Part shown: piece after piece, positions 18,569-24,792 of the stretch
How the letters are laid out: every line of letters begins with the position of its first letter
Position numbering within the stretch: position 1 is the stretch's first letter
From: Linnemannia elongata
Lineage: Eukaryota > Mortierellomycota > Mortierellomycetes > Mortierellales > Mortierellaceae
Length of the DNA stretch: 64,000 nucleotides
Direction: 5' to 3'
Assembly (NCBI GenBank): GCA_036320915.1
Contig: JAXBDG010000002.1
Span: 1,116,001-1,180,000 of the forward strand
Made by a program: the position numbers and the translations under genes
The notes under the pieces: model-generated
What the model was told of the DNA's origin: nothing
Databases searched by the model: none
Seen by the model: the letters and a program-made list of their open reading frames with translations, nothing else

Positions 18569-20288
18569 TCATTTCTTTGCTGTAGCTGCTGCATCCTTGA
18601 GGGCTCTTCTTCGCTGGCGTTCCTCATACCTATTCCCATAGTAGAAAGCAAAAAAAGAAATATCTAATCAGCATCCTAAACCCCTCCCAGGTCCATACAA
18701 TACATCCTTTTCAGTCCTCGGTCGAGAGATTCTTACATTGCGCGCTGCTTATCTATACGATGAACAATACTCTGAGTCGTGACCTCATGCGCAGGTCCAT
18801 CCAGTTGCACAAAGATGCCCCTCTCCTTTGCCAGTTGGTACGGATCAGCTTTCATTTCGCTATCCTGTGTTGTCCTTTCCTGCCGGCGATGATGGTGATG
18901 ACTACCCCGGACTACTTCGTGTACTGTAAAGTCGCCATCCAAAACGTGCTCTGTGAGATAATATGGTGCAGACAGGATAACATCGTCAACGTGCTATCTC
19001 GCGTTTAAAAGTTAGATTGAAGGAATAAGAAAGATGGTGAGAAATTAGTGTCTTCACTAATGGGCGTGAAAAATAGAAATACGACCAGCGCATTTTTTAG
19101 ATGCTCTCCTGAGTCGTGTAGAGTACATGGATAATTGGGATAGCGTAAATAAACAAACGCACGACCTCATTGTCATGAATTACCCGACATGCAAGGAGGG
19201 CAAGAACACGTTCATGCATGCTCATCAGCGGATGGCGAGCGCCCTTGATAGTCCGGACAGTCGCATCATCATACACGCCCACAACCAAATAATCCCCTCT
19301 CGCCTTGGCCCGCTTCAGGAACTCAATATGCCCGACGTGGAACAGATCGAACGTCCCGTCGACATAGATGATCCTGTCCCCCTTCTGCGGGTCCCTATTC
19401 CCACGAGCAAAGGTCGAGATCTTGCGTGCTGTCGATAACACCTCATGCTGTTGTTGCGTCCGCTGTTGTTGTTGTTCTACCCTTCCGGTGATGGTGCTAC
19501 CACCATTGCCCTCACGAACAGCCTGACCTCCTTGTCCTTGCTCCTGCTCTTTTCCCTGTTGTTGACTGGTCATGAGCAACATCCGGTTGACAAGATCCGT
19601 GGTCGAGACACCCTTGGTGCGCTTACATTCCAGATACCGCCCCTGTGCCTTGACGTATTTGAAACTGTCCGTCCCATCCGCAAGCGTCGAGGTGTCATCT
19701 CCATGAACGCAATAGTCACAGTTGTACTTGTCCATCCATTCGAGGGAGGTTGAGTATGGAGCGTTCGGGACTACTTCGTCCACCCACTTGCATGCCGCCA
19801 CCGCCGCCATTCTATTCATATCGTAGCAAAAAGCCCAAAAAAAAAGGAACATGTCAGAACTCTGTCTGCGATTGTGATAAAAACAAAGAGAAACAATGAT
19901 CGTGTGATCGGTACCTTTCGTTCTCGTTCATAACAGTGGGTCCTTTATGCAACAGCAGCTCCGCATCCGAATGAACACCCGCAACAACTATATCGCCCAT
20001 CGCTTTTGCTTGACGGAGGGCGTTAAAGTGACCATGGTGCATCACGTCGTAGCAGCCGTCGACCCAGATCCGAATCGGCTTTCTTTGCCCCGTCGAAGTT
20101 GTTACTGTTGCTGGTGTGAGAGGCACAGTGGAGGTCGATGGTGGGTGTGAAGGTTCGGAGATGTTTAAGGACACCATTGTTGAAACTGGATCTGATGTTG
20201 CAGTTGTTGTAGTGGTGATTGTGGTTGCAGCTATCGATGATGACGATAATGATGTTTGCTGTTGTCCTGTGAGTAGCGTGGGAGTCAT
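18569..20288 (-). CDS. ECT1: ethanolamine-phosphate cytidylyltransferase
   Basis: This enzyme makes CDP-ethanolamine from CTP and phosphoethanolamine in the Kennedy pathway to phosphatidylethanolamine. Four exons (19915-20288, 19184-19811, 18737-18993, 18569-18629) encode 439 aa from the ATG at 20288. As in the family there are two cytidylyltransferase folds. The first has HHGH at 84-87 and RTKGVSTT at 189-196. The second has VDGTFDLFHVGH, with HVGH at 283-286, and only a degenerate form of the second signature (TTQSIVHRI), which is usual for this family. The N-terminal 70 residues are Ser/Thr-rich, with a second possible start at Met38. The linker between the two folds is Gln/Gly-rich. Identity is very strong; the exact start is less sure. 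Confidence 0.94.
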
Positions 20289-21014
20289 GATTTCCTTTCT
20301 CGCAGGATGATTAATATAAAAGTATGTGAAATGAAAGGACGAAATAAGGAGGGAAGGAAGAAAGAAAAACAAAAACAAAAAACAGAACTAGAGCGGGAAG
20401 AGAGAATGTCGATATTCTTATTTCTTCTCCTTCGAGGAGCCACTCGTAGAGACATATTACCGTTCTTCCTCTTCGCATGCAAAAGCGTGTGTGTGTGTGT
20501 GAATGTATGTGTTGACAAAAGCAAAAAAAGCCAGGGGGGTTTGGAATGACCAATGATCGCCAAACACTCTTGCACCTGACGCTGCATTCTCTCCTTAACT
20601 CAAGCTGTGTACAACAATCGTACTCTTGACTTGGTTTAAAGTTTTGTTGTGCCTTTCCTTCATTGTACACCCGCGCCGCCGCGTGCCTGAACCAAACCCT
20701 GGAATTGGCTGAACCTCCTTCCTTCCAACGCCGTGCTAACGGAAGACGATGGGACGTTGACGCTCTTCCTGGGGATGAGTTTTTCCATTTATTCATTCAA
20801 AAACATCATTTTTTTTTTTTTTTTTTTTTGAAAGTACTGGTTTTTTTTCTGACGTGTGTTTTCTTTGTCGTTTCTTTGCTGAATGCGATGAGAAGGGGTA
20901 TCGAAAATGATATAAACAAAACAAAAACTAACCATACAAAACTGCGTACAACAAACTGCTCCCCTCCCCTCCTCCTCGCCACAGTCTGTTTTGTCTCTTG
21001 CGCACGCTGCCTCC
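20289..21014. other. intergenic region, ECT1 upstream
   Basis: This contains the ECT1 promoter and leader and the 3' flank of the pseudokinase gene. It includes a 21-nt T run at 20809-20829 and a short GT repeat near 20488-20501. I see no gene. Confidence 0.5.
20809..20829. repeat. poly-T tract
   Basis: An uninterrupted run of 21 T, interpreted as a simple mononucleotide repeat between genes. Confidence 0.9.
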
Positions 21015-24000
21015 TTAGAAAGGAATACCAAACTGTCGACACCTATCAATGGCCCGCTGCTCCTTCTGCCTTGCTGCCATCTGCCAGTAATGGTCCCGTC
21101 TCTGGACGTTGATCTGCACAACTGCGCTACCTCGGTGATAGGCATCCCCCACCAAGAACTGAGCAAACGCGTTTCCTGTGTCTGCTGCGATCTCCATATG
21201 TCCGAATCCGGTAGTGTTGTTCCTCTCCACTCCTTGGCCCTCCAGATAGCAGACCGCCGCATAAAAGTGGGCATTCGACGACAACAACTTTAGCTCAGGA
21301 CCCAGCTCCATCAATGTCACCGCGTGGAAGAGCTCAAACGCAGTCCGACGGTCCTTAGCCTGACCACCCTCACCGTGGAACAGATAGTATCCTGTCCAGT
21401 ACATTCCTTCAGGGTGACCCTGATCGCTATGCGCCTTGAAAATTTTCCAGGCATCAGCGCGCTCGCGTGCCTCGTGGAAAAGCAGTGCCTGTGACATGGT
21501 ATTGGCCACGGGTGCTGGCGAGAATCCTGTCGACCGAGGGCGACCACTCTCCTGTCCTGATGAGGCCTGCCGTTCGTGTTGAGACCTTGGGCTGCTATTG
21601 CTACTGACACTGTGACCGCTATGGTTGCTGTGCGTGCTCCCAATGCTTTGGCTGCTCTGGTGCCGTTGGGCGCTGTTGGTCGCTTGCTGGTCAGAGTTCT
21701 GAGGTGTCGACGCGCTACCGTCGCTGCTCATCGACAACCTATGCATATCTGCCTCGAGAGTCTGCTTTCGGGCTTTGATCACCAAAGGTCGAGTGTTCTT
21801 GTTGATCGGTGGTGATTCCAGTCTGGGAGAGTTCAACGGCGACCCGGAGGGTCCTGAGGCCTGTGTGGGCGACATTACATGAGCGTCGCTGGGGAATATA
21901 ACGCCGTTGTGGTTTTTGTGGCCGGTGAAACCGTGTGGTTGAGTGGTAGTGGCTGGCAAAGACTGATGCGGCCTTGCTGTGCGAGGCAAGTTCACGTTGT
22001 TGACTGGGACGGGGTCGACGTACTCCTGCTTGGAGTCTGAGGGCTGGTACTCGATACGGGATCCCGTCTCTGGTTGCGAATGAGGCTTGGGTACCGTGTG
22101 ATGAAGGCGAGGCGATTGGGTTGGCTGTTGAGGGGTTTGCTGCTGATTCTGACCCTGGGGTCTTGCCTGCTGAGGTATTGCCAGATGTGCTTGTTGGTGC
22201 GTGGATGATGGCTGGGACGACTGTTGTTGCTGAAGTTGCCTCTGCTGCTGTTGCAACTGCTGCTGCTGTTGGATCGCCTCATCCACGTAGCGTTTGTTGA
22301 CATAGGGGTTCTTATATGCCTCTGGTGTCAAAAGACCTGCGACAGGAGTCATGGGTGGCGAAAACAGTCCTTGGTTCTTGGTTGCTGGAGGAGACACGGC
22401 AAACAGAGGTGGAGGATCCTTAAGGCTGGAGGGCAATGCGAGGGGTTCTCCACTCGTGTGCTTTTCGCAGGTGTCCCTGAGAACCAATAGCACCTGCGAA
22501 ACAGTTGGGCGCAGACGAGGATCGTGTGACCAACAGGCGGTCATGATGTTTCCAAACTCTGCGGGTGTGCCCTCTGGCACCTTTTCGTACAGGTCATCGC
22601 GAACAATCTTCTCGGGCAACTCGCGATCGTTGAATGAGACGAATGGGATCTTGTTTGACGCAATCTCGAAGAGCAACATGCCGAAACTGTAAATATCGCA
22701 TTCAGGGCCATATCTGACCTCTGGGGGTGTCATCTTTTCAGGGGCCAGCCATCGCACAAAACTGAAGGGATCCGACATAGGACGTGTCTGTGCTGACTCC
22801 AGTCGACTTTGGCGGAAATTGGTGATCTTGGCTTGGTTGAATCTTGTCAGCAGAATGTTTTTGGCACGCAACGTCTTGTGGATAATGCCGACCTACACCA
22901 TTTCAAAAGAAAAACAAGTCGTGTCAGATATGCAATGACATGGGTAACATGCACCCAACGACATATATGACCCTTTAACAATAAACCGACATGTTACCTC
23001 GTGCAAAAAGTGCAATCCACGAGCGATATCAGCAGCGATGAATAGCTTTTGCTCCCAATCCAATTCATCCTAGAAGCACGAAAAAAAAAAAGTCAAGCAA
23101 AGGAAGGTCAGCTGAGAGTGACCAAATAACGTTTGCTATGGCACCTTATATGCCCACTATTTTAGCATGTAATGCTCATCATATTCATTCAAAGTTGACT
23201 GATTTTGAATGAAGTGTCGGCTCTTCCATTTACCTTTGCCAAAGTCGAAGCAAGATCGCCATTGGGAAGCCATTCCATGATAATGCTGATCTGATTGTTC
23301 CTGTTAGTGATGCCCATGAATTTTGTGATATAGTTGCATCGGTCCAGTTTCTTTAAGATGGCGACCTCCTTCTTCAGCATGTCAAGCATATCCTGCGATC
23401 CAAAAAATCCCAGGGGCTTCTCTGCAACCTCCTGAGCCAACCATGACCTTTTGTGAACAGGGAAGGTTCTTCCTTTGCGAGTCTCTGATGGTGTGATGCT
23501 GACGACCTGGCGATAGTCGATCTCCACCATGGCCAGGATATCGTCCATGGGTCGGTTGGTGGCGATCATCTGTCGGATTCCGACGAGTTGCCCTCCCAGA
23601 GTATCCAGTCCGTTCTGCAGTTCCTTTCTGAAGACCCTGAGCTCGACCATGTCCTCCTCCAATGCATTTCTGTCCGTCTCCAACTGAGCCTGAGTTCTCA
23701 GTGCGATTCCAAGGTTCAACTATCAGTTGTTGATGCAAAGGGGGGCAGATGAGCGGAAGACAAGCACAATTATGCGGATAGCAAAAGACAAGAAGGCAGA
23801 ATAGAGTGTCAGAAGGTGTCACGTTTTTCGGCGTTGTTGTTTGTGCTTTTGTTTGTTACTGTTGTGTCAGCAATACCAAGCAACTTTGTTGTTTTCTTTC
23901 TCCTTTGAACCACATTGGGAGTCAGTGGTAACGAAAACGTTGACAGAGTGGGGTACAACGTAATGATAAAAAGCAATGCATAGAGCCAACTTACATCCAA

Positions 24001-24792
24001 GACACAGCTGTCGAAATCCCGCAGCAGCGCGTCAAACTCATCGCGAAACCTAAGCGCGTAGAATAGCTACAATAATGGTGATATCGAGATAGCAGGTAGT
24101 GGGTACAGGGCCAGCGAGTGAGGAATGGGTTGAATAGTGTTTAATTGACCAAGGAAACATAAGCAGAAAAAAGGAGAGAGAGGAAAGGTCAGTTCAGCAT
24201 TTAAATGCCATATTCATGCTACTGCCAGAGCAACTATCATGTTTAGCATCAACCATTAACATCCTCAGATTCAACAACCATTCTCCACTGCAACATCGAT
24301 TATCATCCCCGGCAACAACAACTAGCATCTTTTTTTCTATATGATTAGCTGAAGACAAAGAAGAAAAAAACTAACGCTGTCCAGCCGGTTCGTTTGGGGG
24401 CGCTAATAGAAATCCACCAAAAAAAAAATGCACCAACTCCTTCACACCAACCTCCCCGACGGTCTTCTTCTCTCCTCCATTCCCTTCACAAACCCTTATC
24501 CTTTCTCTTTCTCATTTACCTTGGAGAAAGTCTTGCGCTTACTTATCTCAGCGACAAAGTCGCGCATGCGTTCCAGGAGCTGGAAATAATGCTTAAAGGC
24601 CGTTTCGGAGATGACAAAGGCCTTTGGGTTGGCCTTGAACTGCTCGAATGCAGCCTTGATGATCTCGTTCGCGATCTGGATGCGGTGGTTCATGGCCATA
24701 CAGGAGACCTTATTGGACTGGGCTGCCCGTGCGATCTCGTTGATGATCATGGCTAACTGGATAGCACCAGTGAAGATACCGTAGTCGACCAT
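21015..24792 (-). CDS. four-helix domain + pseudokinase (TKL-like) + SEL1-repeat protein
   Basis: Five exons (24520-24792, 23995-24066, 23234-23719, 22998-23069, 21015-22892) encode 926 aa; every intron is phase 0. Residues 1-170 are helical, with the order seen in MLKL-like four-helix bundle and brace regions (AIQLAMIINEIARAA, then RFRDEFDALLRDFDSCV). Residues about 185-450 are a kinase fold with beta3 Lys216, helix-C Glu233 and the APEK motif. The catalytic loop reads HKT (306-308) instead of HRD, and the metal-binding DFG reads NFR (326-328). Both aspartates are therefore missing, and it is probably inactive as a kinase. A Gln/Ser/Pro-rich linker of about 300 residues follows, then SEL1-type repeats from about 765 to the end (EGMYWTGYYLFHGEGG, FYAAVCYLEGQGV, FAQFLVGDAYHRG). 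I infer a signalling scaffold or cell-death-type membrane effector; the function is unproven. Confidence 0.85.

Follow-up and report, generated by a model that had tools for sequence, protein, structure and literature searches.

An MLKL-like predicted bundle, a kinase fold without its catalytic aspartates and SEL1 repeats in one protein of Linnemannia elongata

The window analysed here (64,000 nucleotides of Linnemannia elongata contig JAXBDG010000002.1) carries on its minus strand a five-exon gene for a protein in which an N-terminal helical bundle, with a predicted fold closest to that of MLKL, precedes a kinase fold that has lost both catalytic aspartates and, beyond a long linker, a set of SEL1-type repeats (Table 1). 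Reading the minus strand, the ATG lies at 24792 and the stop codon ends at 21015, exactly the span 21015..24792 that an earlier sequence-only reading had delimited. The four introns (453, 275, 164 and 105 base pairs) are all GT..AG and of phase 0, the first two splitting the part that codes for the bundle. The spliced product matches protein P0001 (Linnemannia elongata BGZ88_006728, 926 residues) except at residues 554, 560, 627 and 705 (922 of 926 equal), each of which lies within the linker; P0001 represents a cluster of 23 member sequences at 90% identity. The spliced translation also bears out the residue numbers of the earlier reading (K216; E233; H306-K307-T308, or HKT; N326-F327-R328, or NFR) and confirms its observation.

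Relatives were taken from the best 120 of 145 protein matches. The first 20 rows (P0001-P0020, 71-100% identity) are referred to hereafter as close orthologs, all of which except P0007 we take, by name, to belong to Mortierellaceae; rows P0021-P0038 and P0042 (n = 19) we assign, from their genus names, to Glomeromycotina. The kinase domain is recognized by Pfam as PK_Tyr_Ser-Thr (1.9e-40), and the combination of missing aspartates with retained beta3 lysine and helix-C glutamate, first seen in the window protein alone, holds across the close orthologs. The HRD and DFG aspartates are both absent from all 20, and therefore no ortholog with both motifs intact was found among them; the loss is fixed in this group, which does not qualify as a catalytic TKL kinase. 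A single glycine is present in TRKGRTFPVHK, the stretch ahead of K216. The activation loop is near-invariant (24 of 28 positions), with S330, S341 and S345 kept throughout the close orthologs, a conservation that is noteworthy in a protein presumably unable to use the loop for catalysis. Scored as a single sequence, the kinase domain ranks CTR1, TYK2 and TNNI3K above MLKL, and a VIA-align comparison of the full model gave only other kinases among its best 50 rows, where the absence of MLKL excludes nothing.

The helical N-terminus of about 170 residues proposed earlier is recovered by AlphaFold2 as six predicted helices between residues 4 and 179 (mean predicted local distance difference test score, pLDDT, 79.5), although confidence in the brace-like helices falls below 50 at 146-168 and 170-173 of the full-length model. 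In the structural comparison with MLKL that the earlier reading had called for, MLKL forms the top cluster and fills the first seven rows, at 14-18% identity over the aligned bundle. A family profile searched against the PDB reaches MLKL at 6e-6 (next non-MLKL row, 0.048) and aligns to mouse MLKL residues 11-172, brace included. Taken in one stretch, bundle, brace-like region and pseudokinase resemble MLKL. Single-sequence PDB rows were all Roquin at E values of 0.28 or worse, and were taken as chance. Used alone as a protein query, the N-terminus returned 19 proteins, each of them one of the close orthologs; hence no wider spread can be read from that query.

Between kinase fold and repeats, a feature missing from the earlier reading, the linker is modelled with pLDDT below 50 at 448-500, 526-681 and 683-763 and with a predicted helix at 501-525 (the full-length model was computed for P0001 and has that protein's residues at the four differing linker positions). 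The SEL1-type repeats expected behind the kinase are found by Pfam (Sel1, 1.8e-9, two stretches, best 841-874) and modelled as helices with block pLDDT of 70-96. The genome itself (51.1 Mb) holds at least 150 Sel1 matches, the best 150 of 1469 candidates having been scored.

Table 1. Features of the gene, in window coordinates (residue numbers refer to the spliced product; aa, amino acids).
Feature	Position	Strand	Basis
Whole gene, 5 exons, 926 aa	24792-24520, 24066-23995, 23719-23234, 23069-22998, 22892-21015	minus	spliced coding span
Predicted four-helix bundle, aa 1-118 (helices 4-22, 28-54, 63-85, 88-116)	23711..24792	minus	AlphaFold2; MLKL executioner domains top; family profile
Brace-like region, aa 119-180 (predicted helix 125-168, short helix 173-179)	23525..23710	minus	AlphaFold2 model
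Kinase-fold domain, aa 187-445, split by introns 3 and 4	22461..23506	minus	Pfam, model, structure matches
beta3 Lys216	23417..23419	minus	K in 20/20 close orthologs, 19/19 Glomeromycotina rows
Helix-C Glu233	23366..23368	minus	E in 20/20 close orthologs, 3/19 Glomeromycotina rows
HKT (306-308) replacing HRD	22872..22880	minus	HKT in 17/20, HKN in 3/20 close orthologs
NFR (326-328) replacing DFG	22812..22820	minus	NFR in 20/20 close orthologs
Q/S/P-rich linker, aa 446-766 (~320 aa)	21498..22460	minus	mostly low confidence, poorly conserved
SEL1-type helical repeats, aa 767-922	21030..21497	minus	Pfam Sel1; full-length model

Mean pairwise identity among the 18 complete orthologs (partial P0017 and P0020 excluded) is 0.80 for residues 1-118, 0.85 for 119-180, 0.88 for the kinase (201-440), 0.44 for the linker (441-790) and 0.75 for 791-926. 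A profile-profile comparison, from which P0038 was excluded together with the same two partial rows, ties the Mortierellaceae family to relatives carrying PF22215, and the window protein is homologous to the MLKL_N kinases of Glomeromycotina. (Set A1 comprised 17 of 39 family members, picked by hand.) In a tree of 66 kinase pieces, the groups of Mortierellaceae (99/99) and Glomeromycotina (100/98) are neighbors, joined with moderate support of 89/77 to the exclusion of 18 own-genome kinases. The set was built without P0020; the length filter removed P0038 from among the Glomeromycotina rows (n = 19) and P0058 from among 7 other rows, 18 of 28 own-genome kinase matches passed the filters, and animal and plant MLKL are outside the set. 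Support for the deeper split is weak (52/86), and the tree tool gave a long-branch warning. The Mortierellaceae group sits on a long stem (1.24) and most of its tips are short, a shape that fits rapid change at first and constraint later. Searched against viral contigs, the exon-5 part found no relative.

Our favored reading, which we hold at about an even chance, is that of a fungal MLKL-type protein whose bundle and brace are restrained by a non-catalytic kinase fold, followed by a flexible linker and the SEL1 repeats. By analogy with MLKL, the pseudokinase would hold the N-terminal bundle in check at rest; a partner binding the SEL1 repeats, which may serve as its docking site, or a phosphorylation or binding event on the near-invariant activation loop, would then most likely change the pseudokinase, freeing the bundle via the brace and allowing freed bundles to assemble on a membrane. 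Autoinhibition, trigger, oligomers and membrane action are inferred. A more elaborate version, which we put forward tentatively and consider rather doubtful, is that Mortierellaceae keep a strongly conserved membrane switch of MLKL type in which the kinase lost its activity in steps, first through the DFG aspartate, before the split from Glomeromycotina, and later through the HRD aspartate, with SEL1 as built-in sensor.

Several observations limit the MLKL reading or weigh against an MLKL-type switch. The Pfam model MLKL_N scores the window N-terminus at 17.7 and 17.5 bits and does not reach its cut-off of 27, nor does Pfam list it for the whole window protein; a profile built from Mortierellaceae only did not recover MLKL; PF22215, searched against the genome that holds the window, matched two other genes and not this one; no interaction partner was found; helix 1 is of moderate hydrophobicity; and every folded part evolves slowly. 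The hydrophobicity of helix 1 as a sign of pore formation is mixed, being weak in part of the family, and was not used as support. The earlier proposal of an MLKL relative is partly supported: predicted fold, family profile and fixed aspartate loss speak for it, whereas the significant four-helix match is delivered by family profile and structural comparison but not by the window sequence itself.

The strongest alternative, somewhat less probable to us than an even chance and close in likelihood to the MLKL-type switch, is a signaling scaffold that never permeabilizes membranes, with the bundle as an oligomerization or docking module, the pseudokinase as an allosteric binding platform and SEL1 as partner holder. 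The slow evolution of all folded parts, the low hydrophobicity of helix 1 in some family members and the 23-member P0001 cluster would suit such a role, as would the search of the own genome with the N-terminus, whose matches are solely exons of the window gene; against it stands the MLKL-like combination of bundle, brace-like region and pseudokinase in one stretch, a layout whose known members act on membranes (PMC11476962, PMC12881547). We consider it improbable that the domain, with HKT and NFR in place, still catalyses in some unusual way or has an activity that depends on nucleotide: K216 and E233 are universal in the close orthologs and 17 of 19 Glomeromycotina relatives keep the HRD-type aspartate, but both aspartates are gone from every close ortholog and only one glycine precedes K216. 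Slightly less probable still is a generic helical bundle whose likeness to MLKL is not homology, which is at odds with the all-MLKL best structural rows, the gap between MLKL and the next row in the profile search, and the profile-profile link to PF22215-carrying relatives. That the gene is an ordinary TKL kinase in decay is very improbable; nothing beyond the missing aspartates commends the idea, while the loss is identical in all close orthologs, frame and splice sites are intact and conservation is strong.

Other genes and groups came to view alongside. Elsewhere in the genome, L043 (G000:C1:1844400-1853000) and L044 (G000:C8:295500-303500) score above the Pfam cut-off for MLKL_N, at 31.0 and 29.4 bits; both have a P/Q-rich N-terminus ahead of that domain. 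In L043 the C-terminal part is long and contains a Cys/His cluster, and no kinase motif was seen there by eye. Among 28 other own-genome kinase matches, 27 were aligned; 22 are readable at both motifs with at least one aspartate each, and 3 are not readable at both. The related kinase-like genes L025 and L033 (G000 C1 and C31) have PCT for HRD and GFG for DFG, and are therefore further likely pseudokinases; as they lack both aspartates, the idea that the window gene is the only such kinase of its genome was dropped. A separate group of metagenome proteins (P0055, P0121-P0125) carries MLKL_N in 6 of 6, a kinase in five and Sel1 in four; the five kinases have HRA, HRG or HRS for HRD and, at the DFG position, aspartate in four and glutamate in one, the reverse of the Glomeromycotina pattern. 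No relative of this group was found in viral and genome contigs. Adjoining frames at 19097-20378 of the window, minus strand (VDGTFDLFHVGH, VDGCYDVMHHGH), resemble an ethanolamine-phosphate cytidylyltransferase.

Set against known systems, the window protein has two features of the MLKL family, a predicted N-terminal four-helix bundle (by fold and family profile) and a kinase fold without catalytic aspartates. In animal MLKL, residues other than HKT and NFR replace HRD and DFG; it is not known to have SEL1 repeats or a long linker, nor is plant MLKL (AtMLKL3, 6ka4) known to have SEL1. Fungal HeLo/HELL effectors are alike in their MLKL-related four-helix domain, but the published accounts of them involve NLRs or amyloid motifs, and no search for either was made here. 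The available parts of the literature compare HeLo, Goodbye and basidiomycete MLKL domains (PMC9815663), review HeLo and MLKL (PMC10197012) and place some HELL domains in proteins with a kinase or pseudokinase domain (PMC12881547). Animal MLKL (2msv, 6zvo, 4btf) comprises a four-helix bundle, brace and pseudokinase (PMC11476962), to which the bundle, brace-like region and kinase fold predicted here would correspond, and the precedent described in PMC11476962 and PMC12881547 is a pseudokinase that restrains the bundle until an activation-loop signal frees it. The accessible literature on Mortierella with MLKL or pseudokinase contains no description of the window protein.

The closest counterparts are the MLKL_N-kinase-Sel1 proteins of Glomeromycotina, with a homologous N-terminus, kinase domain and Sel1 in the same order, and with a brace-like stretch. 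Sel1 is shared with 13 of the 19 listed rows and the combination is already published, and the earlier view of the SEL1 addition as unusual is not supported. At DFG they resemble the window protein, the aspartate being replaced by Asn in 17 rows and by Lys in 1, which is every row readable there (18; the other row has a gap); unlike it, they retain the HRD-position aspartate in 17 of 19, with glutamate in 2, and only 3 of 19 have the helix-C glutamate, as against 20 of 20 close orthologs. In the portion available of PMC8778642, MLKL-family homologs (TCDB 1.A.105) are given, with Sel1, as 'exclusively in Glomeromycotina', and the family as expanded there, in contrast to the N-terminus of the window protein, which matches one gene in its genome; that 'exclusively' has already been loosened in print, because a Basidiobolus MLKL is used in PMC11476962 (accessible part). 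If the reading of a membrane switch with stepwise loss is true, a necroptosis-like module would exist outside the NLR and amyloid systems of Dikarya. If the bundle acts on membranes, non-Dikarya fungi would possess a single-protein MLKL-like switch arranged as in animals, with bundle and brace joined to an inactive kinase, and Glomeromycotina, with one aspartate left, and Mortierellaceae, with none, would form a natural series on when and why catalysis stopped.
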